In this document: positions 47,830 through 64,000 of the stretch, one piece after another
Layout of the letters: each line of letters begins with the position of its first letter
How positions within the stretch are numbered: the first letter of the stretch is position 1
NCBI RefSeq assembly: GCF_000165485.1
Contig: NC_014623.1
Coordinates: forward strand, 9,752,893 to 9,816,892
DNA from: Stigmatella aurantiaca DW4/3-1
GTDB lineage: Bacteria; Myxococcota; Myxococcia; Myxococcales; Myxococcaceae
DNA: 64,000 nucleotides
Direction of reading: 5' to 3'
Program-made: the position numbers and the translations under genes
The notes under the pieces: generated by a model
Seen by the model: the letters and a program-made list of their open reading frames with translations, nothing else
Told to the model about the DNA's origin: nothing
Database searches by the model: none

Positions 47830-47880
47830 GCGGTCCCGTCTCACGGCGGGCCCCTTTCACAGTCCGCGCCGTCGCACATC

Positions 47881-47911: not shown

Positions 47912-47933
47912 GATCTCAGAGGGAGAGGCCCAG

Positions 47934-48401
47934 ATGGCCTTCAAGCTGACCATCAACGGCAAGACCCATGTCATCGAGTCTGAAGAGGACACCCCGCTCC
48001 TCTACGTCCTGCGGGACGAGCTGGGCCTGAACGGGGCGAAGTACGGCTGCGGCGTGGGCCAATGTGGCGCCTGCACGGTGCTCCGGGAAGGCGCACCGCT
48101 GCGCTCCTGCATCGTCCCCGCCGCGTCGCTGAGTGGGCACCCGATCACCACCCTCGAAGGGCTGCGGGCTCCGGATGGCACGCTCCACGCTCTCCAGAAG
48201 GCCTTCCTGGCCGAGCAGGCCGGCCAATGCGCCTACTGCATCCCGGGGATGATCCTCGCGGCGGAGGCGCTGCTGCGAGCGACCCCCCAGCCCTCCGAGA
48301 TGGAGATCCGCGCCGCGCTGGACTCCCACTTGTGCCGATGCGGCTCACACAACCGCATCGTGCGCGCCATTCAGCGTGCCGCGAAGGAGGTGGCCGGATG
48401 A
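47934..48401 (+). CDS. (2Fe-2S)-binding subunit of a molybdenum hydroxylase (isoquinoline 1-oxidoreductase alpha type)
   Basis: 155 aa with two 2Fe-2S clusters: the plant-ferredoxin-like C-x4-C-x2-C in YGCGVGQCGACTV plus a later Cys (RSC), and a helical C-terminal domain with CAYCIPGM and HLCRCGSHNRI. It passes electrons from the molybdenum centre of the partner subunit. No FAD subunit gene is present, which fits the two-subunit IorAB group that gives electrons to a cytochrome rather than to NAD. ATG 47934 follows GGGAGAG. Its stop overlaps the next ATG by four bases. Confidence 0.9.
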   Translation: MAFKLTINGKTHVIESEEDTPLLYVLRDELGLNGAKYGCGVGQCGACTVLREGAPLRSCIVPAASLSGHPITTLEGLRAPDGTLHALQKAFLAEQAGQCAYCIPGMILAAEALLRATPQPSEMEIRAALDSHLCRCGSHNRIVRAIQRAAKEVAG

Positions 48402-50623
48402 GTGCGCCTTTGAAGCGTCGCACCCTCCTCCAGGGCTCACTGGTCCTGACCTTCTCCCTGGCGGCGAGCCCACGCGCCTGGGGCGCGGCAGGAGGACCGA
48501 AGCCATTGCCCGGCAGCTTGGAGAACAACCCCCAGCTCGATGCCTGGCTGCACCTGGGCGCGGACGGCTCCGTCACGCTGAAGACGGGCAAGGTGGAACT
48601 CGGCCAGGGCGTGCTGACGGCCCTCGGGCAGATCTGCGCGGATGAGCTGGATGTCGAGCTGTCGCGGCTGATCCTCGTCTCCGGAGACACCCAACGTTCT
48701 CCCAACGAGGGGCCCACGGCGGGCAGCATGTCCATCTCCCACGGGGGCCTGGCCGTGCGCCACGCCGCCGCCGAGGTTCGCGCCCTCCTCTTGGCCATGG
48801 CCAGCAAGCGGCTGGGTGTGCCGGCCGCGCGGTTGGCGGTGCGGGATGGGACGATTACCGCTCCCTCGGGAAAGGGCTCCGTCACCTACTGGAGCCTGCT
48901 CGGGGGACGCATGCTGGAGCGCCAGGCCTCCGGCACCGTGAAGCCCAAGGCCCCCTCCGAGCGCCGGTATACCGGCCAGTCCGTGCCTCGACTCGACCTG
49001 CCCGCCAAGCTCACGGGAGAAACGAGCTTCGTTCAGGACTTCAGGCCCCCGAACCTGGTGCATGGCCGCGTGGTTCGAGCCCCCTCCCAAGGCGCAGTGC
49101 TCCTAGGGACGGATGCCGCCTCCGTGGAGCGCATGCCGGGGGTCCTGCGGGTGGTGCGCAACGGCCACTTCCTGGGCGTCATCGCCACCGGAGAGTGGCA
49201 AGCCATCCAGGCCTCCGCCGCCCTGGCACGCAGCGCCCGGTGGCAGGAGCAGGCCAACCTCCCAGCGGACCCCTACACCTGGTTGCAGCGCCAGCCCGCG
49301 CAGGACACGGTCATCCAGGACCTCGCGCGGCCGGGTGGTGCGGCTCCCGCCAAGACCTTGGAGGCCAGCTACCGCCGTCCCTACCAGCTCCACGGCTCCA
49401 TCGGCCCGTCGTGTGCGGTGGCGGAATGGAATGGCGAGGCCCTGACCGTCTACACCCACAGCCAGACCATCTTCGACACCACGAAAGCGATCGCGAAGAT
49501 GCTGGGCCTGCCGGAAGACTCCGTGCACGGGAAGCATCTGCCGGGCGCGGGCTGCTATGGCCACAACGGCGCGGATGACGTGGCGGCGGACGCCGCGCTC
49601 CTGGCCCACGCCCTGCCCGGCCGCGCGGTTCGCGTGCAGTGGTCACGCCAGGATGAGCACACCTGTGAACCCTCTGGCTCCGCCATGGTGACGAAGGTCC
49701 GGGCCAACGTGGGGGCCAACGGAGACGTGCTCGACTGGGCGTATGAGCTCTGGTCCAACCCCCACTCCACCCGGCCAGGGGGAAACCCCGGCAACCTGCT
49801 CGCGGGCCGCTCACTGGCGAAGCCCTTTGCCATGCCGGTCCCGAGGAACAGTGGGCCACCCAATTACGCCGCCGACCGGAACGCCATCCCGCTCTACGCT
49901 TTTCCCGGCCAGCGCGTCACCACGCACCTCGTGACCGAGATGCCCGTGCGCGTCTCCTCCCATCGCGGCCTCGGCGCCTACGCCAACGTCTTCTCCATCG
50001 AGTCCTTCATGGACGAGCTGGCCCATGCGGCGGGCGCGGACCCGGTCGAATACCGGCTCCGCCAGCTCCAAGACGAACGGGCCCAAGCCGTCATCCGCAA
50101 GGCGGCGGAACGCTTTGGTTGGACGGCGTTTGAACGCAAACCCCACCACGGCCGAGGCATCGGTTTCGCACGCTACAAGAACCTCGCGAGCTATTGCGCC
50201 GTCTGCCTGGAAGTCGTCATCGAGCCAGACAGCCACGCGATCCGGACCGTGCGCGCCGTGCTCGCCGCCGACGCGGGCGAAGTCGTCAACCCGGATGGAA
50301 TCCGCAACCAGCTCGAAGGAGGGCTGATCCAATCCCTCAGCTGGAGCCTGAAGGAAGCGGTCCGCCACGACGGCCGCCGCATCCTCTCGCGCGACTGGAG
50401 CAGCTATCCGATCCTCACCTTCTCGGAGGTGCCTCCGGTGGAGATCGAACTCATCGACCATCCCGGAGAGCCCTTCCTGGGGGCGGGGGAAGCCTCTCAA
50501 GGCCCCACTGCCGCCGCCTTGGCCAACGCTGTCTTCGACGCCACGGGCCGCCGTGTCCGTGAGCTTCCGTTGACCCCAGAGCGGCTGAAGTCCACGCCGC
50601 CCAGTCAGCGCGCGGGGCAGTGA
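48398..50623 (+). CDS. Molybdopterin-binding subunit of aldehyde/isoquinoline oxidoreductase (IorB type)
   Basis: 741 aa. Twin-arginine-type signal at the N terminus (KRRTLLQGSLVLTFSLAASP), so the enzyme is exported folded to the periplasm. It has the IorB-type order: KTGKVELGQGVLTALGQI, EGPTAGSMSISHGG, GAGCYGHNGADDVAADAALL, VSSHRGLGAYANVFSIESFM, and near the end FLGAGEASQGPTAAALANAV with the likely catalytic Glu. It should hydroxylate an aldehyde or N-heterocycle; the substrate cannot be told from sequence. Overlap with the 2Fe-2S subunit gene shows coupling. Its 3' end overlaps by 19 bases the convergent gene for a c-type cytochrome, a plausible electron acceptor. Confidence 0.9.
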   Translation: MSAPLKRRTLLQGSLVLTFSLAASPRAWGAAGGPKPLPGSLENNPQLDAWLHLGADGSVTLKTGKVELGQGVLTALGQICADELDVELSRLILVSGDTQRSPNEGPTAGSMSISHGGLAVRHAAAEVRALLLAMASKRLGVPAARLAVRDGTITAPSGKGSVTYWSLLGGRMLERQASGTVKPKAPSERRYTGQSVPRLDLPAKLTGETSFVQDFRPPNLVHGRVVRAPSQGAVLLGTDAASVERMPGVLRVVRNGHFLGVIATGEWQAIQASAALARSARWQEQANLPADPYTWLQRQPAQDTVIQDLARPGGAAPAKTLEASYRRPYQLHGSIGPSCAVAEWNGEALTVYTHSQTIFDTTKAIAKMLGLPEDSVHGKHLPGAGCYGHNGADDVAADAALLAHALPGRAVRVQWSRQDEHTCEPSGSAMVTKVRANVGANGDVLDWAYELWSNPHSTRPGGNPGNLLAGRSLAKPFAMPVPRNSGPPNYAADRNAIPLYAFPGQRVTTHLVTEMPVRVSSHRGLGAYANVFSIESFMDELAHAAGADPVEYRLRQLQDERAQAVIRKAAERFGWTAFERKPHHGRGIGFARYKNLASYCAVCLEVVIEPDSHAIRTVRAVLAADAGEVVNPDGIRNQLEGGLIQSLSWSLKEAVRHDGRRILSRDWSSYPILTFSEVPPVEIELIDHPGEPFLGAGEASQGPTAAALANAVFDATGRRVRELPLTPERLKSTPPSQRAGQ

Positions 50624-51273
50624 GCACCGGTGTCGATCCAGGCCCGGATCAGCTCACCGAACTCCTTCTGTGTCCCAGGGACCGGCTGACGTCCCTCCCC
50701 GGGCGCCCACCCCCAGCCCACCAGGACGTCCTCGGCCATGTGGTGATGGATGAACGCCAGGTCATGGCCTCCGTTGCGCTGGGGGTCCTTGAGCTGCTCG
50801 CAGATCTCCCCCAGCGATTTGCCGATCCACGCCATCTCGACGGGGGCCAAAGCCCACTTCGGATTGCCCGGGATGCTCTGAAGGGTCTCTCCCACCAACC
50901 GGGTATTGGCCACCTGATGGCATGACGCGCAGGGAAGACCGGGCATGCCGTGCCCCTTGGCGCCCCCCGTCACGTGCGGCACATGCGGGCGCTGCTCCAA
51001 TCCCTGCCGGGGGACACCGTCCGGCGGGTGGCAGTTGGTGCAGCGCGGATGGGTGATGACGCGGCCCGCCTCGGTGAAAAGCGCGACTGAGCGGGCCTTC
51101 GCATCTTCGATGGATGCGAAGCGGGACACGGGCTGAAGGGGAGGATTCGTCCCGGTCTCGGTTCGCTCCCAAGGAGCGGGCCCCGCGGGGGCTGGCTCCC
51201 GGGTCTTGCCCTTGCAGCCCACCAGCGCCAGGGCCAAACCCAACGCCAGAAGAACGGAAGGAAGGGTCTTCAT
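50605..51273 (-). CDS. c-type cytochrome lipoprotein with two CxxCH motifs
   Basis: 222 aa. The signal ends in a lipobox (LALALVGCKG, Cys20). Two heme-attachment motifs, CTNCH and CASCH, are about 40 residues apart, with distal His/Met candidates (HGMPGLP, HDLAFIHHHMAEDVLVGW). It is therefore probably a periplasmic diheme cytochrome. It converges with, and overlaps by 19 bases, the periplasmic molybdenum hydroxylase gene, so electron transfer from that enzyme is plausible (inference). Its ATG overlaps the stop of the DUF3037 gene by four bases, so it is in one transcript with DUF3037 and the HipA-like kinase. Confidence 0.8.
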   Translation of the reverse strand: MKTLPSVLLALGLALALVGCKGKTREPAPAGPAPWERTETGTNPPLQPVSRFASIEDAKARSVALFTEAGRVITHPRCTNCHPPDGVPRQGLEQRPHVPHVTGGAKGHGMPGLPCASCHQVANTRLVGETLQSIPGNPKWALAPVEMAWIGKSLGEICEQLKDPQRNGGHDLAFIHHHMAEDVLVGWGWAPGEGRQPVPGTQKEFGELIRAWIDTGAHCPAR

Positions 51274-51653
51274 CGCACCATTCGCTCCATCAAATGCTCC
51301 AGGGCCCGGTCCGGAGCCTCGCACAGCCCCGAGTGCACCGGAGACGTTTGGAGAATGGTGCTGCGCGGCGCCACCAACCAATGCCACCGCTCCTTCTGGG
51401 GCAACTGTCCAATGGGACCCGCGCCCCGGCCTCCCGCGCAGATGCGCGGAATGCTCTCCAGGTGGCCACGCACCAGCTCCATGTCCACCTCCGGCGCCAG
51501 CGCGGCCAGCCGCTTCTCATCCAGTTCCACCCGGGCCGCCAGGAAGCGGCTCGTGAGGCAATAAAGGATGACGCCCGCGTTGATGAACTCTCCCCGCTCC
51601 ACGCGCGGCACCACCCGCACGATGGCGTAATCAAACGAGCTGCGCGCGTGCAC
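51270..51653 (-). CDS. DUF3037 protein
   Basis: 127 aa with the DUF3037 pattern: FDYAIVRVVPRVERGEFINA, GVILYCLTSRFLAARVELD, LLxLAPEVDMELVRGHLES and a final HSGLCEAPDRALEHLMERMV. DUF3037 genes are commonly paired with HipA-like kinase genes, and that is the case here: the GTG start at 51653 lies inside the 3' end of the HipA-like gene (23-base overlap), with an excellent AGGAGG. A longer frame from 51770 is rejected. Function unknown; an adaptor or regulator of the kinase is inferred. Confidence 0.8.
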   Translation of the reverse strand: MHARSSFDYAIVRVVPRVERGEFINAGVILYCLTSRFLAARVELDEKRLAALAPEVDMELVRGHLESIPRICAGGRGAGPIGQLPQKERWHWLVAPRSTILQTSPVHSGLCEAPDRALEHLMERMVR

Positions 51654-52413
51654 GCTCCGCCTCCTGGATGAACACGGGGGTTGAAGCCAGGCGCTCGCGC
51701 AGAAAGGCCACATAGGCCGCCCGGTGCTCCGCCTTGGACGGAAAGCCCGCCTCCGTCTCCAGCCACTCATCCGGAATCAGCCCCACCACCCCCTCCAGCA
51801 CCTCGGGGGTCAGCCGCTCGCGCAGCGTGGCCTCCGCCGCGCGCAGCTCCGAGGCCCACGGCAGCAACACATGGTCCTTGATGGGCGCGAATGCGCTGCG
51901 GGCACGTTCCAGGTGTCCCTCCCAGGAGTGATGGAAGTACAGCGCGGCCCCGTGGTCGATGAGCCAGAGGGCTCTGTGCCAGACCAGCATGTTCGGGTTC
52001 TTCGGCGTCCGGTCCACATTCGTCACGTACGCATCGAAGCAGACGATGCCCGAGGCCTCCGCCGCCCCAGGTGCCGGACCCGCCAGCGGATCAAACGTGA
52101 TGGAGCGTGGCAGGTAATCCATCGCCAGGTTCAAACCGGCGCTTGCCTTGATCAGATCCCGGATCTCCCCATCCGGCTCGGCGCGTCCCAGCACCGGATC
52201 CAAGTGGATGAACACCAGTTCGGGCACCCGCAACCCCATCGCCCGCGCCAGCTCTCCGGCGATCAGCTCGGCGATGAGGGCCTTGGGCCCTTGCCCTGCC
52301 CCCCGGAACTTCAGCACGTACAGCCCCGAGTCCTCTGCCTCGACGATGGCCGGCAGGGAGCCGCCTTCTCTCAGCGGTGTCACATACCGGGTCGCGGTGA
52401 CCGTCCTCATCAT
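51631..52413 (-). CDS. HipA-like kinase domain protein
   Basis: 260 aa. It has the compact HipA-like kinase core without HipA's usual N-terminal domain: lysine in LYVLKFRGAGQGPKALIAEL, GELARAMGLRVPELVFIHLD, catalytic loop AYVTNVDRTPKNPNMLVW with Asp and Asn, and the metal-binding LWLIDHGAALYFHH. Catalysis is plausible. HipA itself phosphorylates glutamyl-tRNA synthetase and acts as a toxin. Here no HipB-type DNA-binding antitoxin is adjacent; instead DUF3037 is coupled downstream. The start is the first ATG of a pair (52413/52410) after a G-rich stretch; GTG 52422 is another option. Target unknown. Confidence 0.75.
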   Translation of the reverse strand: MMRTVTATRYVTPLREGGSLPAIVEAEDSGLYVLKFRGAGQGPKALIAELIAGELARAMGLRVPELVFIHLDPVLGRAEPDGEIRDLIKASAGLNLAMDYLPRSITFDPLAGPAPGAAEASGIVCFDAYVTNVDRTPKNPNMLVWHRALWLIDHGAALYFHHSWEGHLERARSAFAPIKDHVLLPWASELRAAEATLRERLTPEVLEGVVGLIPDEWLETEAGFPSKAEHRAAYVAFLRERLASTPVFIQEAERARAQLV

Positions 52414-52466
52414 GGCCCCCACTTACCACGGCGCCGCGCGCTTTCCGCCAGCGCGACGGCGGTCCC

Positions 52467-54032
52467 TTACGGCGAGGCGTCCGCCTGATCGTCCGCGGGA
52501 GCATGGCGTGGCACCTTCACCGTGAAAGTGGTGCCGTGCTGCGCATCCGAGCGGACGTCGATGGAACCCCCGTGTGCCCGGATGATGTGGTCCACGATGA
52601 ACAGTCCCAGCCCCAGGCTCCGCCCGGAGGCCCCTTCGGGCTGTGCCCGCCGCTTCATGGGGGAGTAGAGCTGGGACAGCATCTCCTCGGGAATGGGACT
52701 TCCCTGGTTGTGGACCTCCAGGATGACCTCCTGCCCCTCTCCCCGCGTCGTCACATGCACCTGCGTTCCGGGAGGGCTGTAGCGCAGCGCGTTTGTCACC
52801 AGGTTGGTGAGGACCTGGGCCATGCGGTCCGAGTCCCAGTCCCCGAAGCTGTTGCCGTGGTGGGTGACCTCGACGTGCCGCTCCGGAAAGTTGAGCTGCA
52901 CCTCGTCCACCACCTGCTGGGTGAGCTCCTGCAACTCCAGCCGCTTGCGCACCACCCGCAGCCCCCCGCCCAGCCGGGCCTGCGTGAAGTCGAGCGTCGT
53001 ATCGATTATCCGGTGCGCGCGCTCCGCCGAGGCCAGGATGCGGCTCAGCGCCTCTCGCATGCGCTCGTCGAGATCGCGGCGGCGCAGCATCATGACCGCC
53101 GAGAGGGTAATGGCGCTGATGGGGTTGCGCAGATCATGCCCGACCATGCCGGCCAGGTACTGCTCGAACTCCGCACGCTGCTGGGCCTCCTGCTCCTGGC
53201 GCTTCTGCTCGGAAATATCGAAGGCCAGGGTGGCCAGCGCCACGGACTGGCCACCCTCATCCGGGATGAAGAAGAGGTCGTGCTGCACCGGAATGGATGT
53301 GTCCGTGCTCAGGTTCCGCAACCGAAACTCCCCCCGCCACCGGCCCGTCTGCTGAAGAACAGGCTTGAGCTGGTCCGAGCACTGGCGCTGCTCCTCGGGC
53401 CCGTAGAAGTCCGTCAGCTTCAGACGCGTCACGTCCTCCCCCCCCAGCCCCACCATCTGGCGGCCCGCTGGGTTGAGGTATTGCATCTGGCCTTCCTGCG
53501 TGGCGAACCCAATGAAGGAGGAAGAGTCGGCCACCACGGCGGCGAGGCGCTGGTGCTCCACCCGCAAGCGCATCCGCTCGGCGGACTCGGCCTGTAGCTG
53601 GCGCCGGAGCTGCTCCCGCTCGATGGTGTTGCGCACCGCGCGGAAGAGGCTCTCCGGGGTGACCTCTGCCTTGACCAGATAGTCGGCCGCGCCCTCCTTG
53701 AGCGCCTGCGCGGCGATCCGCTCATTGCCCCGCCCCGTCAGCATCACCACGGGAGGCGGAGGAGCGATCTCGTACCTCCTCAGCCGGTGGAGAAACTCCA
53801 GGCCATTCATGCCCGGCAGGTGGTAGTCGAGCAGGATGCAGTCCACCGGATGCTTGCGGCAAGCCTCCAGGGCTGCCTCCGCGTCCTCTTCCTCGATGAA
53901 CGTGTAGTCATACTCGCCTACCTCGCCCAGGAAAGCCCGGTAGGTGCCACGATCCTCGGGGCTGTCCTCGACCAGCAGCAGCGTCAAGGAGAGGCGCGTC
54001 ACGGGAGGGCGCGCCGGTGCGGGCGGCGTCAT
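52467..54032 (-). CDS. Hybrid protein: receiver-PAS-histidine kinase
   Basis: 521 aa. Receiver first (LLLVEDSPEDRG, phospho-Asp in CILLDYHLPGMNG, lysine in LVKAEV), then a coiled coil and PAS domain (VVADSSSFIGFATQEGQMQY, ... FDISEQKRQEQ), then HisKA with H-box GMVGHDLRNPISAI and an HATPase (NLVTNALRYSPPG, GRSLGLGLFIVDHI). It is cytoplasmic. It is the last gene of the phytochrome cassette and overlaps the upstream receiver gene by four bases. A likely role is receiving phosphoryl groups or protein contacts from upstream partners and passing the signal on; direction is not evident from sequence. Confidence 0.88.
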   Translation of the reverse strand: MTPPAPARPPVTRLSLTLLLVEDSPEDRGTYRAFLGEVGEYDYTFIEEEDAEAALEACRKHPVDCILLDYHLPGMNGLEFLHRLRRYEIAPPPPVVMLTGRGNERIAAQALKEGAADYLVKAEVTPESLFRAVRNTIEREQLRRQLQAESAERMRLRVEHQRLAAVVADSSSFIGFATQEGQMQYLNPAGRQMVGLGGEDVTRLKLTDFYGPEEQRQCSDQLKPVLQQTGRWRGEFRLRNLSTDTSIPVQHDLFFIPDEGGQSVALATLAFDISEQKRQEQEAQQRAEFEQYLAGMVGHDLRNPISAITLSAVMMLRRRDLDERMREALSRILASAERAHRIIDTTLDFTQARLGGGLRVVRKRLELQELTQQVVDEVQLNFPERHVEVTHHGNSFGDWDSDRMAQVLTNLVTNALRYSPPGTQVHVTTRGEGQEVILEVHNQGSPIPEEMLSQLYSPMKRRAQPEGASGRSLGLGLFIVDHIIRAHGGSIDVRSDAQHGTTFTVKVPRHAPADDQADASP

Positions 54033-54490
54033 TGCCACCGCCTCTCACGCAAGGGCGCCACGGGGAGCGCGGGAAGAACGACGAAATCCAGCCAGAATTC
54101 CTTCAAGAGCCGCACCATGCGCTCGAACCGGTCGAGATCCACGGGCTTGAGAAGATAAGCACTGACCCCCAGCTGATAACAGCTCTGCACATCCCTGGGG
54201 TTGTCCGAGGTGGAGAAGACAATGACGGGAATACTCCGCAAGGAGGCATCCGCCTTGAGGCGCTCCAGCACCTGGCGCCCGTCCATTCCTGGCAGATTGA
54301 GGTCCAGCAAGACGAGCCCCGGCCGGGGTGCCTGCTCCTCCTCCTGGTACCGTCCCTGATGGCCCAGAAACTCCAGCGTTTCTTCTCCGTCCGCGCAGCG
54401 AAACAAGGGGTTCGGAATGGACGCGCCCCGGAAGGCGAGCTGGAGCATGTCGAAGTCCTCGTCGTTGTCTTCGACAACCAAGATAGGCAT
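54029..54490 (-). CDS. Response regulator, Rcp1-like single receiver
   Basis: 153 aa. Receiver with acidic pair in ILVVEDNDED, phospho-Asp in LVLLDLNLPGMDG and lysine in YLLKPVDLDRF. The Q-L-A-F/NP-L-F-x-C-x-D-G-E-E-x-L-E-F-L pattern is that of Rcp1-type receivers, which dock to phytochrome histidine kinases. The gene begins four bases after the stop of the bacteriophytochrome gene, so it is very probably the cognate receiver. A short basic C-terminal tail follows. The first 10 residues of the longer frame overlap the previous gene and were left out. Confidence 0.88.
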   Translation of the reverse strand: MPILVVEDNDEDFDMLQLAFRGASIPNPLFRCADGEETLEFLGHQGRYQEEEQAPRPGLVLLDLNLPGMDGRQVLERLKADASLRSIPVIVFSTSDNPRDVQSCYQLGVSAYLLKPVDLDRFERMVRLLKEFWLDFVVLPALPVAPLRERRWQ

Positions 54491-54494
54491 CCCG

Positions 54495-56777
54495 CTATTC
54501 ACCGGAAGGCTCCTGGGCATCCCGCTCCGCGGCCAGGGTGAAGTAGAACGCGGAGCCCTCTCCAGGAGTGGATTCCAGCCAGATGCGGCCGTTGTGCCGC
54601 TCGATGATGCGCTTGACGATGGTCAGGCCCGTGCCCGTGCCCCCCCCGAAGCGGTCACGCGCATGCAGCCGCTTGAAGATGCGAAAGATGGTCTCGTGGA
54701 ACTCGGCCTTGATGCCAATGCCGTTGTCCCGCACGAAGTAGGCCACGCGCGCGGCCTGTCCGTCCGGCACCGCCCCCAGCTCCACCCATCGCTCGGCCTT
54801 GTCGTTGTACTTGAGGGCATTCGTGATGAGGTTGGTGAAGACCTCCGCGATGCGGACCCGGTCACACCGCGCCGGCGGCAGCGGCCGAGGAATGCGCACC
54901 TCCACGCGTGCCTCCTCCAACCGGGGCCGGAGCAACTCCAACACCTGGTTCACCACCTCGTTGAGATCCGTCTCCCGCAGCAGCAACTCGGTGCGTCCCA
55001 CCTGGGCATAGTGCAGGAGCGAGTTGATGAGGCTCTCCATGCGCTGGGTGAGCCGCACGACGGTGTCCAGCCGCTCCTTCGCGGTGGCGGGCAGCACGGC
55101 CTCGGCCTCCCGCAGCGCGAGCAGGGTGTAGTTGTGAATGCCGCGCAGAGGCTCCTTCAGGTCATGGCTGGCCGCGTAGGCGAAGGCATCGAGCTCCACG
55201 TTGCTGCGTTCCAGCTCCGTGTTGAGCTTGAGCAGTTCCTCGCTGCGCTGCAGGGCCACATCGATGATGGAGCGGCGCAGCTCGGAGGCGGCCTCCACCT
55301 CGTACGCCTTCCAGGGCAGACACCTGCCACGCACCGTCTCCTTCCACAACTCGAAGGACTTGCGCGGGTGCAGCCTCGGACCGCCCTGATCGAACTCCAC
55401 GGCCTTGGTGGGGTTGCCACTCCAGTTCACGGTCTGGACCGCCTCCGGACGGAACCACAGCACGAAGTTGTTGCGGCCCCGGGACATGGAGAAGGCCATG
55501 AGCCCGGCGGCCACCTCCTGGAAGGCCTGGGCCTCCGGGTACTCTCTGGCCAGCCGGTCCGTGCAGAACACCCCCTCGCCGGTGCGCGAACCCAACCACT
55601 CGATCAGCCCGGTGAGGGCCTCGTCCGAGGGGGCTTGGCCGAGCACCGTCGTCCGCCCATGAAAGTGGATGGCGGCGCCATGGGCATGGACCAGCTCCAA
55701 CAGGCCGGACTCCTGGCTGGCCAGCCCCGAGACGAAGTCCACCTCCCGCGCCATGCGCTCCAGCAGGGCCGCGTGGATGGACTTGGCGCGGATGCGCTGG
55801 TCATAGTCCTCGTTGCCCTCCTTCGCCGCCAGCAGGCTGGACATCACCTCGCCGAGGAACTCACACGCCGTGCGAACCTCGTAAGGCACATACCGGGTGC
55901 CCGAGACCTGGGTGCAGGAGATGAGCCCCCAGAGCTTGCCGTCCTTCATGAGCGAGATGCTCATGGAGGCCTGCACGCCCATGTTGTGGAGGTATTCCAG
56001 GTGAATGGGAGACACGCTGCGCAGCACCGAGAAGGACAGATCCAGCGGCTCCCCGTGCCCGGGCAAGGCCCGCACGCGCGCGGGCTGATAATCGATGGTG
56101 GGGATGATGCGCAGCCAGTTGAGCTGATACAACTCGCGCGCCTGGCGCGGGATGTCCGAGGCGGGGAAGTGCAGCCCCAGGTAGGGATCGGCCCGGGCAT
56201 CCCGGGCCTCGGCGATCACCGAGCCGTTCCACTCCGCATCGAAGCGGTAGATGATGGCGCGGTCGAACCCGGTGAGCCCCCGGACCTCCTGGACGACGGC
56301 CTCGCACAGCTCCTGCAAGTCCCTCGCGTCGCGCAGGCGCGACAGGCCGTCCCGCACCGCGTGGAAGAAGCTCAGGAAAGGAACAGCCTCCCGGTGCGAC
56401 GAGGGCTCCAGCTCGAGGATGAGCCGTCCCTGGTGGCGGTGCGCGATGCCGTCGAAGAAACGGTCCACCCCGTCCACGCGCCAGACCACCTTCAAGGGGT
56501 TGAGCTGCTTGAGCCGCGCGCTGCGCAGGTCCGCCTCCAGTGGCTCGCGCACCGAGGGCTCGATGAAGTGTCCGAGCGGAGCGCCCAGCAGCTGCTCGGC
56601 GGAGTTGCCCAGAACGGCGGGCGCATTCTCGCTCGCGTGCGTGAGCACCAACCCGGGCTCGCTGAGCACCAGAAGCACGCCGTGCGGCTGGATCGCGCCA
56701 GGGATGTGAATGGGCTCCCGGTCGCAGTTGGTGAGATCCACCTCCTGCTTGCCGCTCCGGGACGCCTCAGTGCTCAT
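54495..56777 (-). CDS. Bacteriophytochrome histidine kinase
   Basis: 760 aa light sensor. PAS-GAF-PHY photosensory module: Cys18 in LTNCDREPIHIPG is the biliverdin attachment site; GFDRAIIYRFDAEWNGSVIA and PASDIP (205-210) mark the GAF domain; PHY has the tongue motif PRKSF near residue 470. The kinase part has H-box ASHDLKEPLRG (about 538) and HATPase motifs (NLITNALKYND, DNGIGI, GGTGTGLTIVKRI). It should switch between red and far-red states and phosphorylate the adjacent receiver. No heme oxygenase (biliverdin source) is in the window. ATG 56777 follows GGGAGG and overlaps the upstream gene by 11 bases. Confidence 0.94.
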   Translation of the reverse strand: MSTEASRSGKQEVDLTNCDREPIHIPGAIQPHGVLLVLSEPGLVLTHASENAPAVLGNSAEQLLGAPLGHFIEPSVREPLEADLRSARLKQLNPLKVVWRVDGVDRFFDGIAHRHQGRLILELEPSSHREAVPFLSFFHAVRDGLSRLRDARDLQELCEAVVQEVRGLTGFDRAIIYRFDAEWNGSVIAEARDARADPYLGLHFPASDIPRQARELYQLNWLRIIPTIDYQPARVRALPGHGEPLDLSFSVLRSVSPIHLEYLHNMGVQASMSISLMKDGKLWGLISCTQVSGTRYVPYEVRTACEFLGEVMSSLLAAKEGNEDYDQRIRAKSIHAALLERMAREVDFVSGLASQESGLLELVHAHGAAIHFHGRTTVLGQAPSDEALTGLIEWLGSRTGEGVFCTDRLAREYPEAQAFQEVAAGLMAFSMSRGRNNFVLWFRPEAVQTVNWSGNPTKAVEFDQGGPRLHPRKSFELWKETVRGRCLPWKAYEVEAASELRRSIIDVALQRSEELLKLNTELERSNVELDAFAYAASHDLKEPLRGIHNYTLLALREAEAVLPATAKERLDTVVRLTQRMESLINSLLHYAQVGRTELLLRETDLNEVVNQVLELLRPRLEEARVEVRIPRPLPPARCDRVRIAEVFTNLITNALKYNDKAERWVELGAVPDGQAARVAYFVRDNGIGIKAEFHETIFRIFKRLHARDRFGGGTGTGLTIVKRIIERHNGRIWLESTPGEGSAFYFTLAAERDAQEPSGE

Positions 56778-58437
56778 CCTGCGCGCCTCCCCCTTCCCCG
56801 TCAGGAGACCTCCGTGGCAGCTCGACGGTAAAGGTGGCGCCCTGGCCCGGCTCGCTCCGCACGAGCACCTGACCACCCATGGCCTCCACCACCTGGCGGG
56901 TGATGAAGAGCCCCAGTCCCAACCCTCCGTAGTGCCGGTCCGACACCCCCCGCTCGAAGCGGCCAAAGAGGCGGGCCTGCACGCCCTCATCCATGCCAAT
57001 GCCCTCGTCGCTCACCCTGAGCCGCGCCCACTCGCCCATCTCCTCGACCCGCAGCTGGACGGCGCGCCCCGCGCCAAACTTGAGGGCGTTGGACAAAAGG
57101 TTCGTCACCACCTGCTCCAGCCGCAGCGCATCCCAGTGGCCCAGCACACGGACCGGGGCATCGATCTCCAGCGGACTGCCCACCCGCATGGCCTGGGTCT
57201 CGAACCCCGAGGCCACCGCCCGCACGATGGCCGCGAGGTTGACGCCCCGCTCGCGGCGTAGGGACAGCCGGCCGCTGATGATTCGCGTGGTGTCCAGCAG
57301 GCTGTCCACCAGCGACGCCAGCCGTCCCAGCTGGGTGCCCGCGGACTCCAGATGCTTGTGCAGGCGCTCCCGGGGGATCAATCCAGCATGCGCGTCCACC
57401 TCCTTGCGCATCACCTGCACCCTCAAGGACAGGGACGTGAGCGGGGTCTTCAGCTCGTGGCTCGCCACGGAGAGGAACTCGTCCCGCTGGCGCACGGCCT
57501 CCCGCAGCCCCGCCATGAGCCGCTCCTTCTCGGTCTCCGCTGTCTTCGCCTCGGTGATGTCGGTCATGAAGCCTTCGATGAACCGCAACTCCCCCTCTGG
57601 GGAGAAAACCCCAGCGGACCGGGCCCACATCCAGCGAGGCTCCGCATCCCGGCGAAGGATGCGGTACACGGCGGTCTGCAGGCGGCCTTCCGCGAAGGCC
57701 TGCTTCGCCTCCTGGACGATCCGCTCGACATCCTCCGGCGACATGAGGCTCTTCCAGAGCTGGGGACTGGCGGTGAACTCAGCGGCGGAATAGCCGGTGA
57801 GCGACTGGCACCCCTCACTGGCGAAGTCGAGGCTCCAGTCCGGGCTGCAGCGGAACACCATGCCCGGCAAGTTGCCCATGAGCATCGAGAGCGTCCGCTG
57901 GCTTTCGAGCAGCGCCTCCTCCGCCTGGCGTCTCTGGCTCTCCAGCACCTGCCGCTCGCGCAGGCCCAGCGCCTTCTCCTGGCGTCTCAGGGCCTCGCGC
58001 TCATGGTAGAGATCCACGAAGACGCGTACCTTCGCGCGCAGGGCATCCGGCTTCACGGGCTTGCTCAGGTAGTCCACCGCGCCGCTGGCATACCCACGCA
58101 CGATGACGGCTTCCTCCCGCCGCGCGCCCGACAGGAAGATGAGGGGCACACGCCGGTTGGGGGCGTGCTCCCGGATGAGCCGGGCCGCCTCGAAACCGTC
58201 CATTCCCGGCATCCGTACATCCATCAGCACCAGGGCGAACTCCTGATCGTCCAGATACTGCAGGGCCTCCTCACCCGAATGGGCTTTAACTATTTGGAGG
58301 TCCAACGAATTGAGCGAGCGCTCAACAGCCGCCAATTCGAAGGGCTGATCATCCACGACCAGAATGGTGGCCCGCGATTCTTGCCCGACGTGCAAGGCGC
58401 CTCCGGTACGAGACGGTGTAACAGTGCCAAGCAGCAT
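56767..58437 (-). CDS. Hybrid protein: receiver-PAS-histidine kinase, head of phytochrome cassette
   Basis: 556 aa. N-terminal receiver (ILVVDDQPFELAAV, phospho-Asp in LVLMDVRMPGMDG, lysine in YLSKPVKP), coiled-coil linker, PAS/PAC (LPGMVFRCSPDWSLDFASEG ... FMTDITEAKTAE), HisKA with H-box SVASHELKTPLTSL and HATPase (NLLSNALKFGAG, GGLGLGLFITRQV). It is cytoplasmic. All phosphorylation residues are present. It is the first of four overlapping or touching genes on this strand, followed directly by the bacteriophytochrome, so it is probably expressed with it and may be fed by it. The ATG at 58437 after AAGG is preferred over the GTG six bases upstream. Confidence 0.88.
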   Translation of the reverse strand: MLLGTVTPSRTGGALHVGQESRATILVVDDQPFELAAVERSLNSLDLQIVKAHSGEEALQYLDDQEFALVLMDVRMPGMDGFEAARLIREHAPNRRVPLIFLSGARREEAVIVRGYASGAVDYLSKPVKPDALRAKVRVFVDLYHEREALRRQEKALGLRERQVLESQRRQAEEALLESQRTLSMLMGNLPGMVFRCSPDWSLDFASEGCQSLTGYSAAEFTASPQLWKSLMSPEDVERIVQEAKQAFAEGRLQTAVYRILRRDAEPRWMWARSAGVFSPEGELRFIEGFMTDITEAKTAETEKERLMAGLREAVRQRDEFLSVASHELKTPLTSLSLRVQVMRKEVDAHAGLIPRERLHKHLESAGTQLGRLASLVDSLLDTTRIISGRLSLRRERGVNLAAIVRAVASGFETQAMRVGSPLEIDAPVRVLGHWDALRLEQVVTNLLSNALKFGAGRAVQLRVEEMGEWARLRVSDEGIGMDEGVQARLFGRFERGVSDRHYGGLGLGLFITRQVVEAMGGQVLVRSEPGQGATFTVELPRRSPDGEGGGAQDEH

Positions 58438-58563
58438 GTGCACGCGCCTTGTAGGCTGAAGTGTTCAACACTCACAATGCACCCGAGGGCAATGTCAACC
58501 ATCGCTCGAATGCATGCCAGGGCTTCGGGCTGTACCCACCTCAGCACACCTGAGAAGGGCCCC

Positions 58564-59052
58564 TCAGGGGCCGCTTCCCCCCGCGCTCATCCGCAACTCC
58601 ACGGCCGGTGCGTGCACGGGCTCACGCATGAGCCGGCTCGCCATCCGCTTCAACTTCGCCGCGGTCGCCGCGCGGTGGATGATGGTCGTCAGCTCTTCGG
58701 GCCGGTAGGGCTTGCGCAGCAGGTGGAAGAAGTCGCGCGCCTGTTGGAGTTCGAGCCGCTGCACCGACTGGTAATCCCCGGTGATCAAAATGCCCGCCAG
58801 GTAGGGCCGGCTGGTGGAGGCCGCGTGCAGCAGGTGGCCACAGTCCCGCGTGGGCAGGTCAATGTCCACGCACGCGACATCGAAGTGGTGCTGGTCCATC
58901 AGCGCGATCGCTGACTCAGCGGTCCTGGCGAGTTTGACCTGGAAATGCATGGACAGGATCGTCCCAGCCGCTCCAAGCGCCGCCTCCTCTGCCGCGACGA
59001 ACAAGACGCTGCACAGGTTGGAAACCTCCGTACGGAGTGTCATTCCACGCAT
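58564..59052 (-). CDS. Degenerate single-domain receiver
   Basis: 162 aa with a receiver fold: phospho-Asp candidate in VACVDIDLP, TGDY, and lysine in LLRKPYRPEEL. The acidic pocket normally reading DD is AAEE (VLFVAAEEAAL), so Mg binding and normal phosphorylation are doubtful. The tail (AAKLKRMASRLM) matches that of the intact receiver at 38-469. It runs in the same direction as the phytochrome cassette, 126 bases upstream of it, and is divergent from the membrane histidine kinase. It may act as a constitutive or protein-binding receiver (inference). An alternative start lies three codons in. Confidence 0.75.
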   Translation of the reverse strand: MRGMTLRTEVSNLCSVLFVAAEEAALGAAGTILSMHFQVKLARTAESAIALMDQHHFDVACVDIDLPTRDCGHLLHAASTSRPYLAGILITGDYQSVQRLELQQARDFFHLLRKPYRPEELTTIIHRAATAAKLKRMASRLMREPVHAPAVELRMSAGGSGP

Positions 59053-59449
59053 GATGTGATTCCCCCCGGTGAGGCCTCTGTGCCTGAATCCAGACGTTCA
59101 AGAGCCTCGCCCCTATCCATCCATCAGAATGCCCCCCGTGTTCAAGTCCCCCACCCCTGGAATGACAAAAAACTCCGGCGCCGGTAGAACCCGGGGAGTA
59201 CATTTCCGGACGCCCCCAGACAGTCCTGTCTGGCATGTGACAACGCCATCACCCTTTCGGCCGGTTTGAATTCCTGGCTTTGTCGGTGATAGTGACCTTC
59301 TGGTCTGGGGCAGCTTTGTCATGGATCGGGGGGGAAGTCATGACACGTCGGTCCTCGGCAGCTGCCTTGGCAGAAGGGCTGTGCCTGCCTGCATGCCCGC
59401 TTTGAATGGACCCCGTCCGCTTCGTGAGAGCGCTTCCATCGGGTTCCCC
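59053..59449. promoter_or_regulatory. Divergent regulatory region of receiver and histidine kinase genes
   Basis: 397 bases with no supported gene. It holds the perfect dyad at 59216-59233 and an AT-rich stretch (TTTGAATTCCTGG, near 59265) that may be part of a promoter for the rightward histidine kinase. It separates two two-component genes transcribed in opposite directions, so one regulator bound in the middle could control both. Confidence 0.4.
59216..59233. promoter_or_regulatory. Perfect 18-base dyad, candidate operator
   Basis: CCAGACAGTCCTGTCTGG: 8-base arms CCAGACAG / CTGTCTGG around two bases. Half-site spacing of one helical turn is what a dimeric helix-turn-helix repressor or activator would use. 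It sits mid-way in the divergent gap between the degenerate receiver and the membrane histidine kinase genes. Confidence 0.5.
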
Positions 59450-60916
59450 ATGAGCCATGCCGAGAATGAGAACACATTGGCGGAGCGCCTGCTCAGCGAG
59501 ACGCAGCGGCTCTACACCCAGTACACCTCCGACGCGTGGCGGCGGGTGGATGCCATTTTCGCCTGGCTCATGGTCGGCCAATGGCTGTCTGCCATTTTCA
59601 TCGCCCTGGCCCTCGCGCCCTATGGCTGGAACGGAAGGACGCAGGCGCTGCACGTCCACATGAATGCCGCGCTCTTTCTGGGCGGTGGGCTCAGCCTGCT
59701 GCCCATCCTCCTGGTCTGGTGGCACCCGGGCACGGTGCTCACCCGGCACGTGGTGGCCATCTCGCAGATGCTCTGGTCCGCGCTGCTCATCCACCTGACG
59801 GGGGGCCGCATCGAGACGCACTTTCACATCTTCGGCTCCCTGGCCTTCCTGGCCTTCTACCGGGACTGGAAGGTGTTGCTCACCGCCACCCTCACCATTG
59901 CCGCGGACCACACGCTGCGCGGCCTGTTCTGGCCCGAGTCCATCTACGGCATCTCCACCCCCGAGCCCTGGCGCCTGGCCGAGCACCTGTTCTGGGTGGC
60001 CTTCATGGACATCGTGCTCTTCGCCGCCTGCCGGGCCGCGCTGAACGAGATGCAGGAGATGGCCAAGCGCCGGGCCATGGCGGAGCTGGCGTATGTGCAG
60101 CTCTCGGCCAGCCTGACGCAGCTTCAGGCCACCCAGGCCCAGCTCCTGTTCGCGGACCGGCTGGCCGCGATGGGACGGCTGGCCGCGGGCGTCGGGCACG
60201 AAATCAACAACCCCCTGGCCTATGTCATCAGCAACATCAACTACGTGCACCGCGAGCTGGGGCTCCTCACGCAGGACAGCCCCTCACCGGAGACCCAGCG
60301 GGAGCTGCTCGCGGCGATCGCCGACGCGCAGGAGGGCGCCGAGCGCGTGCGCCTCATCGTTCAGGATCTGAAGATGCTGGCGCAGGCGCAGGACTTCCGG
60401 GCGCTCCTGGAACACGACACCTGCAATGGGCCATCGGACTTGAGGGCCATCGTCGACAGCGCCGTGAGGGTCGCGTCCCGGCAGATCCGCCGCCGCGCCC
60501 GCCTGGTGACGGAGTTCGAGGCCATTCCCCTGGTCCAGGGCAACGAAAGCCGCCTGCGGCAGGTCTTCCTCAACCTGCTCATCAACGCGGCCCAGGCCAT
60601 TCCCGAGGGCCGGGTGGACCAGAATGAGATTCGCGTGGTGGCCCGCCAGCTCACCCCTCAGCGGGTCAGCGTGGAGGTGCGCGACACCGGATGCGGGATT
60701 CCGGCGGAGAACCTGGAGCACATTTTTGATCCGTTCTTCACCACCAAACCTCCCGGCGAGGGAACGGGGCTGGGGCTCTCCGTGAGCCACAGCATCATCA
60801 CCTCCATGGGAGGCGCCATCAGCGTGGAGAGCGATGTCGGCAGCGGGACGACCATCCGCGTCAACCTGCCCACCGTGGACCCGCTCCTCCTGAACACGAT
60901 GCAGCCCTCGCACTGA
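59450..60916 (+). CDS. Membrane sensor histidine kinase
   Basis: 488 aa. The N-terminal ~200 residues form five or six membrane helices (WLMVGQWLSAIFIALALAPY, ALFLGGGLSLLPILLVWW) with a conserved short motif GGRIETHFHIFGSLAFLAFY, found in a family of His-containing membrane sensors, and HLFWVAFMDIVLFAACRAAL. After a coiled coil come HisKA with H-box GVGHEINNPLAYV and HATPase (NLLINAAQAIPEG, DTGCGIPAEN, GEGTGLGLSVSHSI). The signal is unknown; several His in or near the membrane could bind a metal or heme. The ATG has only a weak ribosome binding site, but the frame before it has no family similarity. Confidence 0.88.
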   Translation: MSHAENENTLAERLLSETQRLYTQYTSDAWRRVDAIFAWLMVGQWLSAIFIALALAPYGWNGRTQALHVHMNAALFLGGGLSLLPILLVWWHPGTVLTRHVVAISQMLWSALLIHLTGGRIETHFHIFGSLAFLAFYRDWKVLLTATLTIAADHTLRGLFWPESIYGISTPEPWRLAEHLFWVAFMDIVLFAACRAALNEMQEMAKRRAMAELAYVQLSASLTQLQATQAQLLFADRLAAMGRLAAGVGHEINNPLAYVISNINYVHRELGLLTQDSPSPETQRELLAAIADAQEGAERVRLIVQDLKMLAQAQDFRALLEHDTCNGPSDLRAIVDSAVRVASRQIRRRARLVTEFEAIPLVQGNESRLRQVFLNLLINAAQAIPEGRVDQNEIRVVARQLTPQRVSVEVRDTGCGIPAENLEHIFDPFFTTKPPGEGTGLGLSVSHSIITSMGGAISVESDVGSGTTIRVNLPTVDPLLLNTMQPSH

Positions 60917-60937
60917 GCCGCAGCCGGGCGGCCTCCT

Positions 60938-61969
60938 TCAGGGAACCGGCAGGGGGTTGCGCTCGACGAACTGACGCTGGTGCCAGTAGGGGTAGACGGG
61001 CACCGTGGCGCTGGCCGCATCGAGCTTCGCGACCTGCGCGGCCGTCAGGTTCCAGCCGGCGGCGCCCAGGTTCTGGCGCAGCTGCGCTTCGTTGCGCGCA
61101 CCGATGATGACGTTGGCGACCGTCGGCCGCTGCAACAGCCAGTTCAGGGCAACCTGCGGCACCGTTTTGCCGGTCTCCTCCGCCACCGCGTCCAGCGCGT
61201 CCACGACTTGGTAGAGAAACTCGTCGGATACCTTCGGGCCGCCCTGCGCCGTGACCGCCGTCATGCGAGTGCCCTGCGGCAGGGGCTTGCCTCGCCGAAG
61301 TTTTCCGGTGAGCCGACCCCAGCCCAGAGGGCTCCACACCACCGTGCCGACCTTCTGATCGAGCGCCACGGGCATCAGCTCCCACTCGTAGTCGCGCCCG
61401 ACGAGCGAGTAGTACGCCTGGTGGGCCACGTACCGGGAGAGGTTGTGGCGGTCCGACGCCGCCAACGACTTCATGAGGTGCCAACCCGAGAAGTTCGAGC
61501 ACCCGATGTAGCGGATCTTCCCGCTGCGCACCAAGTCATCGAGCGCGTTGAGCGTCTCCTCGACGGGCGTGACGGCATCGAAGCCGTGCAGTTGGAACAG
61601 GTCGATGAAGTCGGTGCCCAGGCGGCGCAGACTGCCTTCGCAGGCCCGGATCAGATGGTAGCGCGACGAGCCCACATCGTTGGGGCCATCGCCCGCGCGG
61701 AAGGTGGCCTTGGTGGAGAGAATCAACCGCTCGCGCCGACCCTTGATGGCCTGACCGAGGATCTCCTCGGCCAGACCATTGGAGTACACATCGGCCGAGT
61801 CGAACATGTTCATCCCGGCGTCGAGCGAGATGTCGACGAGCCGGGTGGCGTCCTTCACGTCCGTGGACCCAAACCCCTTGAAGAAGTCATTGCTGCCCCC
61901 AAAGGATGCCGTGCCCAGACTGAACACGGGAACCTTGAACCCCGAACCGCCCAGCTGTCTGAATTCCAT
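60938..61969 (-). CDS. Aldo/keto reductase
   Basis: 343 aa, NADPH-dependent oxidoreductase. Family features seen: ASFGGSNDFFKGFG, the catalytic Asp-Tyr pair in NMFDSADVYSNGLAEEILG, Lys in LILSTKAT, His in LFQLHGFDAV, and the cofactor-binding region WSPLGWGRLTGKL with NVIIGARNEAQLRQNL near the end. It belongs to the Tas/YghZ-like general group; substrate not predictable. ATG 61969 is chosen over the in-frame GTG seven codons upstream because it fits the family N terminus and has GGGGAG in front. It follows cysC by 39 bases on the same strand; a functional link is not obvious. Confidence 0.9.
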   Translation of the reverse strand: MEFRQLGGSGFKVPVFSLGTASFGGSNDFFKGFGSTDVKDATRLVDISLDAGMNMFDSADVYSNGLAEEILGQAIKGRRERLILSTKATFRAGDGPNDVGSSRYHLIRACEGSLRRLGTDFIDLFQLHGFDAVTPVEETLNALDDLVRSGKIRYIGCSNFSGWHLMKSLAASDRHNLSRYVAHQAYYSLVGRDYEWELMPVALDQKVGTVVWSPLGWGRLTGKLRRGKPLPQGTRMTAVTAQGGPKVSDEFLYQVVDALDAVAEETGKTVPQVALNWLLQRPTVANVIIGARNEAQLRQNLGAAGWNLTAAQVAKLDAASATVPVYPYWHQRQFVERNPLPVP

Positions 61970-62008
61970 GGGGCGGATTCTCCCCATCACCCAGGTCGAG
62001 GCAAGGAG

Positions 62009-62617
62009 TTAAGAGCCGCTCGCGGCAGTCCGTGACGGGGTGAACAAGCCTCGCTCACGCAAGCGTTCGAGAATGTTCTTCACCCCCTGCTCCACGGACT
62101 CCTTGTCCGTCTGGACGAGCACATCCGGGGACTCGGGGGGCTCGTAGGGATCCGAGATGCCGGTGAAGTTCGAGATCTCTCCAGCGAGGGCCTTCTTGTA
62201 GAGCCCCTTCACATCGCGCTGGATGAGCGCCTCCAGGCTGGCATGGGCATGCACCTCGATGAAGGCAATGCCCTGCTCGCCCGCCAGTTTCCTCACCTCG
62301 TCGCGCGCCTGCCGGTACGGAGAGATGGCCGCGGTGATGACCGCGACCCGATGGCGGGCCAGCACGCGGGCGACATAGCCGATCCGGCGGATGTTCTCCT
62401 CACGGTCGGCCTTGGAGAAGCCAAGCCCTCTCGAGAGGATCGTCCGGACCTCGTCACCATCCAGGACCTCCACGGGTTGAACCTTCTCCAACTGGTGCCG
62501 AACCGCGTTGGCGAGCGTGCTCTTGCCCGCCCCAGACATGCCCGTCAGCCAGAGAATGAATCCCCCAGGCCGCCCCCCGTACACATCCTGAATGTGAGAC
62601 GCCTTCTCGTGTTCCAT
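62009..62617 (-). CDS. cysC: Adenylylsulfate kinase (APS kinase)
   Basis: 202 aa. It phosphorylates adenosine 5'-phosphosulfate to PAPS. Seen: Walker A GMSGAGKST, LDGDEVRTILSRGLGFSKAD, the REENIRRIGYVARVL helix, ISPYRQARDEVR, and VKGLYKKALAGEISNFTG followed by DPYEPPESP, all family landmarks. No sulfate adenylyltransferase gene (cysD/cysN) is adjacent, so it may serve PAPS supply for sulfation rather than assimilation, but the rest of the pathway may lie elsewhere. ATG 62617 follows GGGG; an in-frame ATG at 62632 is the alternative. It lies 52 bases downstream of the ABC exporter gene on the same strand. Confidence 0.9.
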   Translation of the reverse strand: MEHEKASHIQDVYGGRPGGFILWLTGMSGAGKSTLANAVRHQLEKVQPVEVLDGDEVRTILSRGLGFSKADREENIRRIGYVARVLARHRVAVITAAISPYRQARDEVRKLAGEQGIAFIEVHAHASLEALIQRDVKGLYKKALAGEISNFTGISDPYEPPESPDVLVQTDKESVEQGVKNILERLRERGLFTPSRTAASGS

Positions 62618-62669
62618 CGCGCACCCCAGCATCTCCGCTCTGGGGGGGGATATCCAGGGCGCACTCCCG

Positions 62670-64000
62670 CTAATTCGTCTGGTACCCGCGCGCCTGAAGG
62701 TTGAAGAGGTGGGCGTAGCGCCCATCGAGCGCCATCAACTCGGAGTGGTTGCCCAGCTCGTCCACCCGGCCGTTGTGCAGCACGGCAATGCGGTCCGCCA
62801 TCCGCACCGTCGAGAAGCGGTGGGAGATGACCAGGGTGATGCGGTTGGCCGCCAGGGCCTGGAAACGCTCGAACAGGGCGTGCTCCGCCTCCGCGTCGAT
62901 GCTGGCCGTCGGCTCATCCAGGATGAGCACCTCGGCCTCCCGCATGAAGGCCCGCGCCACCGCCAGCTTCTGCCACTGTCCCCCGCTCAGCTCGAACCCC
63001 TTGTCGAACCACCCCCCCAGCATGGTGTCGTACTTCTGCGGAAGCTCCTCGATGACGCCGTGCGCCCCTCCATGCTCGGCCGCTTGGCGGATGCGCTCCC
63101 GGTTCTCGATGGACTGCACATGGCCCAGCCCGATGTTCTCCGCCACGTTGAACTGGTAGCGCACGAAGTCCTGGAACACCGCGCCGAAGCGCGAGCGCAG
63201 GTCCTCGGGCTCCATGTCCTTCACGTTGACGCCGCCGTAGAAGATGTCCCCCTCGGTCGGCTCGTACATGCGCAGCAGCAGCTTCACCAGCGTCGTCTTT
63301 CCTGCGCCGTTCTCGCCCACCAGCGCCAGCTTCTCGCCAGGTTCCAGGCGCAGCGACACGCCGCGCAGCGCCCAGGCCTCCTTGCCCGGGTAGCGGAAGG
63401 ACACGTTGCGCAGCTCCAGCGTGTTTCCCAGCCCCTTCCGAGGGGAGAGGGCAGGCACCACCCGGGGCGTCTCCGCGCCCGTCGGAATGTCCAGGTAGGC
63501 AAAGAGGGTGCTCATGTAGAGCGCCCCCTCGTACATGGAGCCCAAGCTCGTGAGGATGCCCTGGAAGGCGGTCTGCCCGCCGCGGAAGAGGGACAAGTAC
63601 AGCACCATGTCTCCCACCGAGATGAGGCCCAGCGTCGCCCGGCCCGCGATGAAGGCATAGCACCCGTAGAACGCGCCCAGCGCCAGGGCCCCCAGCCCCA
63701 ACCCCCACGCCATCCGCCGGATCGACAGTCCCTTCTCCTCAGAGAAGAACTTCCAGTGCAATGACTGATAACGGTCGAGCACCATGGGGCCCAACCCGAA
63801 CAGCTTCACCTCCTTGACGTGGTTGTCTCGGGTGAGGATCCACTCGAGGTAAGCCAGCTTCCGCCGCTCCGGTGCTCTCCACGAGTGGAGCCGAAACCCC
63901 TCCTCCGCCATCCGCGCCTCCGCGATGAACGCCGGAATCGACGCCAGCACCAGCACCGCCACGCTCCACGGAGAGAGGGTCACGAGCATCACCGCGTACG
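62670..64000 (-). CDS. ABC exporter (fused permease/ATPase), 5' end outside the window
   Basis: 443 residues visible; the N-terminal part lies beyond position 64000. The membrane domain is partly seen (WSVAVLVLASIPAFIAEARM, GLGALALGAFYGCYAFIAGR, VLYLSLFRGGQTAFQGILTS). The nucleotide-binding domain is complete: Walker A VGENGAGKTTLVKLLL, signature ELSGGQWQKLAVARAF, Walker B VLILDEPTAS, and switch His in LVISHRFSTVRMA. It is a half-size exporter that works as a dimer. Substrate unknown. It heads a co-directional run with cysC and the aldo/keto reductase; the gaps of 52 and 39 bases allow one transcript. Confidence 0.9.
   Translation of the reverse strand, partial: YAVMLVTLSPWSVAVLVLASIPAFIAEARMAEEGFRLHSWRAPERRKLAYLEWILTRDNHVKEVKLFGLGPMVLDRYQSLHWKFFSEEKGLSIRRMAWGLGLGALALGAFYGCYAFIAGRATLGLISVGDMVLYLSLFRGGQTAFQGILTSLGSMYEGALYMSTLFAYLDIPTGAETPRVVPALSPRKGLGNTLELRNVSFRYPGKEAWALRGVSLRLEPGEKLALVGENGAGKTTLVKLLLRMYEPTEGDIFYGGVNVKDMEPEDLRSRFGAVFQDFVRYQFNVAENIGLGHVQSIENRERIRQAAEHGGAHGVIEELPQKYDTMLGGWFDKGFELSGGQWQKLAVARAFMREAEVLILDEPTASIDAEAEHALFERFQALAANRITLVISHRFSTVRMADRIAVLHNGRVDELGNHSELMALDGRYAHLFNLQARGYQTN

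Follow-up and report, generated by a model that had tools for sequence, protein, structure and literature searches.

Organization of the bacteriophytochrome locus

The 64,000-nucleotide stretch of the Stigmatella aurantiaca DW4/3-1 chromosome analysed here (contig NC_014623.1; hereafter the window) carries four adjoining signalling genes on its minus strand, transcribed in the order HK1, BphP, Rcp and HK2 and centred on a bacteriophytochrome. HK1 (56767..58395) encodes a histidine kinase with the Pfam domains Response_reg, PAS_3, HisKA and HATPase_c, and bphP1 (54495..56777) a phytochrome composed of PAS_2, GAF, PHY, HisKA and HATPase_c, with Cys18, Thr289 and His538 at its key positions. Rcp (54029..54502), a single-domain response regulator resembling Rcp1 and RcpB, contains Response_reg alone, and HK2 (52467..54032) contains Response_reg, PAS, HisKA and HATPase_c. 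These genes, domains and coordinates had been proposed from a sequence-only reading, and the Pfam search and open reading frame (ORF) check of the window confirmed them. The junction sizes in that reading were also right, but their order and one sign were not: HK1 and bphP1 overlap by 11 bases (56767..56777) instead of being separated by a gap.

The start of HK1 was placed at a TTG at 58395, a position common to its orthologues (GTG in L203); the ATG at 58437, previously taken as the start, is not conserved among them. For Rcp, a GTG at 54502 is common to the five closest loci and produces an 8-base overlap with BphP, and alternative ATGs lie at 54520 and 54490, one of which leaves a 4-base gap between the two genes. 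HK2 begins at an ATG that overlaps Rcp by 4 bases in all 14 BphP1 loci compared below. Since such junctions recur across loci, they are more than chance arrangements. Searches of the locus returned no sigma-70 promoter-like sites (0.7 expected) and two terminator-like sites (2.5 expected), and because neither count exceeds expectation no transcript ends are proposed. It should be considered that HisKA matches are abundant in this 10.26 Mb genome (150 scored places of 226 candidates); histidine kinases being so common, one extra adjoining kinase is by itself weak evidence of a functional link.

The photosensor is SaBphP1

Residues 1-513 of the window phytochrome are identical to PDB 6bao, and within residues 1-515 the sole difference from PDB 6bap is at position 289, a histidine in 6bap. 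The forward primer given for SaBphP1 in the accessible text of PMC6126659 matches the start codon region of the window bphP gene. With this start codon, Thr289 and the 6bao identity in agreement, the protein is SaBphP1 of S. aurantiaca, already expressed and crystallised (PDB 6bao, 6bap, 4rq9), and therefore the photosensor of the locus is already known. All five Pfam domains of the PAS_2-GAF-PHY core and the HisKA-HATPase module scored over their curated cut-offs, and Cys18 supplies the N-terminal biliverdin cysteine; the conserved GAF histidine is replaced by Thr289. According to the same partly accessible source, this threonine is a recognised exception among myxobacterial phytochromes in which photoconversion is retained, and both chromophore binding and Pr/Pfr photoconversion of SaBphP1 have been published (PMC6126659).

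Conservation of BphP1, Rcp and HK2 as a unit

An order-wide search of 145 genomes yielded 69 phytochrome places in 48 genomes. The flanks of all 69 were taken and 67 phytochrome genes were scored, two G080 places being pieces of one gene and the G128 place falling under the bit limit. Fourteen genes, 66-100% identical, formed the BphP1 group, leaving 53 other myxobacterial phytochromes. Outside the order there were at least 587 relatives, of which the best 80 loci were examined (83 phytochrome hits, including cyanobacteria, Hymenobacter and Dictyobacter), a sample that leans to close relatives. Neighbour-gene counts are lower bounds, some contigs being cut.

Rcp and a receiver kinase lay downstream of the phytochrome, in the same order and on one strand as in operons of the RtBphP1 type, in 14/14 BphP1 loci. 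Both were also found beside the phytochrome at 40 of the 53 other myxobacterial loci, and in the best 80 outside loci Rcp accompanied 64, a receiver kinase 49 and both together 47 of the 83 hits. A broken member was seen in the same genus: the BphP1 gene of G080 (L147 8001-10282) is split over two frames and is still followed by matches to Rcp and HK2. Judged by conservation, the unit at this locus is the triad BphP1-Rcp-HK2 and not a set of four genes. The proposed grouping of a phytochrome with an Rcp1-like receiver and a kinase that begins with a receiver, as one signalling unit, is thus well supported, both by this conservation and by a precedent in Ramlibacter tataouinensis. There, hmuO-RtBphP1-RtBRR-RtBHK forms a putative operon for a phytochrome, a CheY-type response regulator and an atypical hybrid kinase, and the kinase mutant resembles both phytochrome mutants (PMC6848086, accessible text). 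Compared by description, the two loci share the phytochrome, response regulator and kinase, the last genetically tested in Ramlibacter; they differ in that Ramlibacter has a heme oxygenase gene, and an upstream receiver kinase is not mentioned in the text available. The HO-BphP-RR-HK operon (heme oxygenase, phytochrome, response regulator, histidine kinase) of Myxococcus macrosporus, as described in the accessible part of PMC11832031, has the same phytochrome-regulator-kinase backbone, and its heme oxygenase makes it like the S. aurantiaca BphP2 locus and unlike the BphP1 locus.

The best PDB match of Rcp was RcpB (1k66, E 2.5e-45), with Rcp1 (1i3c) and RcpA (1k68) also near the top; the 1k66 alignment spans residues 8-152 in the 163-residue version of Rcp, a single receiver including the C-terminal extension. 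Rcp1, RcpA and RcpB are phytochrome partners. Rcp being so clear a relative of RcpB and Rcp1, one could suppose a plain pair of the Cph1/Rcp1 type, in which BphP1 signals to Rcp only and both receiver kinases are merely co-transcribed, and indeed 17 of the 83 hits in the best 80 outside loci have Rcp with no receiver kinase in reach. Unlike the cyanobacterial Cph1/Rcp1 and RcpA/RcpB pairs, however, the window type includes a receiver kinase in its conserved unit: HK2 follows Rcp with its 4-base overlap in every one of the 14 loci and was lost together with BphP1 and Rcp in the sister genome G077 (see below). Taken with the phenotype of the Ramlibacter kinase mutant, these observations make the plain pair improbable. 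A layout resembling the four-gene arrangement was noted at the Dulcicalothrix phytochrome (L012), a cyanobacterial look-alike with receiver and kinase matches on both sides.

The third triad member, HK2, gave its best PDB match over the receiver (6oap, E 1.4e-32). This structure is PPHK of Leptolyngbya sp. JSC-1, described in the accessible text of PMC11480761 as a phosphorylation-responsive photosensitive kinase. HK2 has an N-terminal receiver of the same type followed by HisKA-HATPase; PPHK binds phycocyanobilin (PMC11480761), whereas HK2 has a PAS domain. In the translations, both receivers seem by eye to keep their phosphorylation residues and the kinase residues look intact. That HK2 is a dead kinase, its ATP box lacking the usual Asp, was considered and rejected as the default, the N-x-G-x-P box being present in 14/14 orthologues. 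The solved bacteriophytochrome 9eut, which we take to be PaBphP and an active kinase, also has Asn at the place of the missing Asp, though the rest of its box differs. A crude count of H-box plus G2-box motifs (34 of 107 receiver ORFs) was set aside, as its G2 pattern missed the common G-S-G-V-G-L form.

HK1 is separable from the triad

HK1 adjoins BphP1 in only 4 of the 14 loci (the window, L135, L136 and L137) and is absent at the other 10. Along the locus, identity to the window is 90.5% for the sister genome G077 and 84.6% for G078 and G079. G077 aligns to window positions 44801-52455 and 56756-64000 with 29 bases between and with collinear flanks. Since the alignment skips 52456..56755 (with edges accurate to within a few bases), G077 has neither BphP1 nor Rcp nor HK2, and both flanks and HK1 are kept. 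A remnant of approximately 7 bphP1 codons persists behind HK1, some 11 bases of it outside the HK1 frame, and the only phytochrome match of G077 is of a 42% type. Because G077 is nearer to the window than the triad-bearing G078 and G079, the absence is most simply explained as a loss of all three genes together. The window and G077 also differ locally at a second place, window positions 44433-44801, where approximately 0.4 kb is replaced by approximately 1.7 kb in G077.

The HK1 left behind in G077 is intact, 89% identical to that of the window and complete in all domains, with a ratio of nonsynonymous to synonymous substitution rates (dN/dS) against the window gene of 0.18, and of 0.07 over the receiver. 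Moreover, in G048 and G045 a 63% orthologue of HK1 lies away from BphP1, 18 and 57 nucleotides, respectively, after a gene for an 807-aa PAS/GAF kinase (domains read for G048 alone). The search match to the G048 orthologue spans one stop, but an uninterrupted 545-aa frame contains all the domains. The 807-aa kinase occurs in 6 of 96 family genomes, all of one genus; judging from coordinates, an HK1-like kinase also lies within approximately 700 nucleotides of it in the other four.

The sequence-only reading had taken the two hybrid kinases around the phytochrome and its receiver to imply a branched relay. On this model BphP1 would be the phosphodonor for the HK1 receiver as well as the HK2 receiver, and the two kinases would drive two outputs. 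It is true that the four genes share a strand and overlap or adjoin one another, that the HK1/bphP1 overlap is kept wherever HK1 is present, and that both receivers appear, by eye, to keep the residues for phosphorylation. For HK1, nevertheless, the implication found no support: a kinase that is missing from most BphP1 loci, retained and constrained in G077, which has no BphP1, and found behind an unrelated kinase in G048 and G045 is not co-conserved with the phytochrome, and we consider the branched relay quite unlikely.

Association of Thr289 with the BphP1 locus type

Threonine occupies residue 289 in 14/14 BphP1 genes, whereas all 53 remaining myxobacterial phytochromes carry another residue there (47 His, 4 Gly, 2 Ala), as do the 83 hits in the best 80 outside loci (82 His, 1 Ile). 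A further myxobacterial phytochrome class with Gly or Ala at this position (L115, L117, L121, L153, L154 and L162) has no adjacent Rcp match. In a tree of 77 sequences, built by a quick method and leaving out the broken G080 gene, the 13 BphP1 genes clustered together at 100% support and away from the BphP2 group. The possibility that BphP1 is a recent duplicate of BphP2 was rejected, as the two are separate groups with 100% support each.

Neighbouring genes also set these loci apart. A heme oxygenase gene, characteristic of the RtBphP1-type operon, adjoins (upstream) 45 of the 53 other myxobacterial phytochrome genes and none of the 14 BphP1 genes. The 58 receiver kinases adjoining myxobacterial phytochromes carry one of two ATP boxes: N-x-G-x-P in 14/14 BphP1 loci and 3 loci belonging to another class, D-x-G-x-G in the remaining 41. 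The combination of Thr289, a third-gene kinase with an N-x-G-x-P box and the lack of a neighbouring heme oxygenase was, within the sets compared, confined to BphP1 loci.

The genome holds one further phytochrome, at the BphP2 locus (L151), with 8uph as its best full-length PDB match (1371 bits); we infer that this entry and those with adjoining codes represent SaBphP2. Its third-gene kinase is a receiver-HisKA-HATPase protein with no PAS match. The two heme oxygenase matches of the genome lie at 8569169, adjoining BphP2, and at 5452424, with none at the BphP1 locus. In the accessible text of PMC6126659 the BphPs are placed in a three-gene operon with a heme oxygenase and a response regulator. 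This published operon fits BphP2 and not the BphP1 locus, where two receiver kinases are present and heme oxygenase gave no match.

Neighbouring genes in the window

A single receiver gene (58564-59052, minus strand) lies 120 bases upstream of the longest reading of HK1 and 168 bases from its TTG. Its acidic pair is replaced (A-A-E-E, by eye) and it is kept in G077, G078 and G079; it is perhaps a fifth, degenerate member of the locus. A divergent histidine kinase gene follows at 59321-60916 (plus strand; HisKA, HATPase_c in Pfam), likewise kept in these three genomes. Directly after HK2, a gene for a HipA-like kinase (51631-52422, minus strand; HipA_2 in Pfam) is strongly conserved, with dN/dS of 0.08-0.20. 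Farther away, 23916-26416 and 28294-30704, of approximately 2.4 kb each, align in both orientations to adjacent regions of L147, which suggests that they hold related genes.

Discussion

We propose, with a probability of roughly 60%, that BphP1, Rcp and HK2 constitute a three-gene light-signalling module and that HK1, a receiver-PAS kinase, stands apart from the module but is expressed in connection with BphP1. BphP1, with biliverdin on Cys18, would autophosphorylate His538 under red/far-red control and hand its phosphoryl group on to Rcp, a regulator lacking any output domain. HK2 would act in a second tier: its N-terminal receiver would sense, directly or via Rcp, the phosphorylation state that BphP1 determines, and HK2 would combine this signal with its own PAS input before acting on a response regulator. 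That target is presumably encoded elsewhere, because Pfam finds no DNA-binding output domain in the four genes. PPHK is said to work with an upstream photoreceptor by a logic-OR mechanism. HK1, with inputs of its own, may have been recruited 5' of the module in the Stigmatella branch.

Several observations weigh against this proposal. Because the 11-base HK1/bphP1 overlap is identical in all four loci that have HK1, some link between HK1 and bphP1 is likely; at the BphP1 locus of G076, a kinase other than HK1 lies upstream in the same orientation, and together these two facts argue for some joint function of upstream kinases with BphP1. Against G078, the HK1 receiver has a dN/dS of 0.11 in G077 and 0.07 in the window, and the loss in G077 may be recent, leaving HK1 no time to decay. 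HK2 is the fastest-evolving triad member, with dN/dS of 0.34-0.60 versus 0.14-0.36 for BphP1 and Rcp. In a covariation analysis (101 triads, effective number 39), the histidine domain of BphP gave the same enrichment with each of the two receivers, 4 interface pairs among the top 50 where 1.0 was expected, and the receivers were not told apart. Finally, we found no report of kinase activity of BphP1 itself in the open-access text. A converging network, in which HK1 and HK2 serve as extra kinases or phosphatases for Rcp and Rcp sums light and two PAS signals, would be in keeping with the HisKA and HATPase_c domains of both kinases and the overlap of their genes with those of BphP1 and Rcp, but it leaves their N-terminal receivers unexplained and HK1 survives without Rcp in G077, which makes it very improbable.

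A broader and more speculative extension of the three-gene proposal, which we regard as unlikely in its entirety, is that the Thr289 phytochromes are one lineage with a module of its own, dispensing with a local heme oxygenase and using a phosphorylation-gated N-x-G-x-P PAS kinase to integrate light with a second cue. HK1, a second receiver kinase wired independently, would have been added in Stigmatella by translational coupling, so that the dose of BphP1 follows HK1, and G077 would be a natural knock-out.

In the open-access literature we found no description of a BphP1 locus with two receiver kinases or of the triad loss in G077, and the accessible structural literature on SaBphP1 does not name its downstream partners. 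The relevance of the locus to fruiting is based on published wavelength experiments with cells unaltered in these genes (PMC6126659, accessible text), and the bphP genes still need inactivating, according to the available part of PMC11832031. Our findings bear on phytochrome control of fruiting in non-photosynthetic bacteria: they correct the description of the BphP1 locus, narrow the likely partners of BphP1 to Rcp and HK2, and tie the unexplained Thr289 to a locus type. A sister species without the module offers a ready natural control and, if the Thr289 lineage does possess a module of its own, the light-dependence of fruiting should differ in the species of G077.

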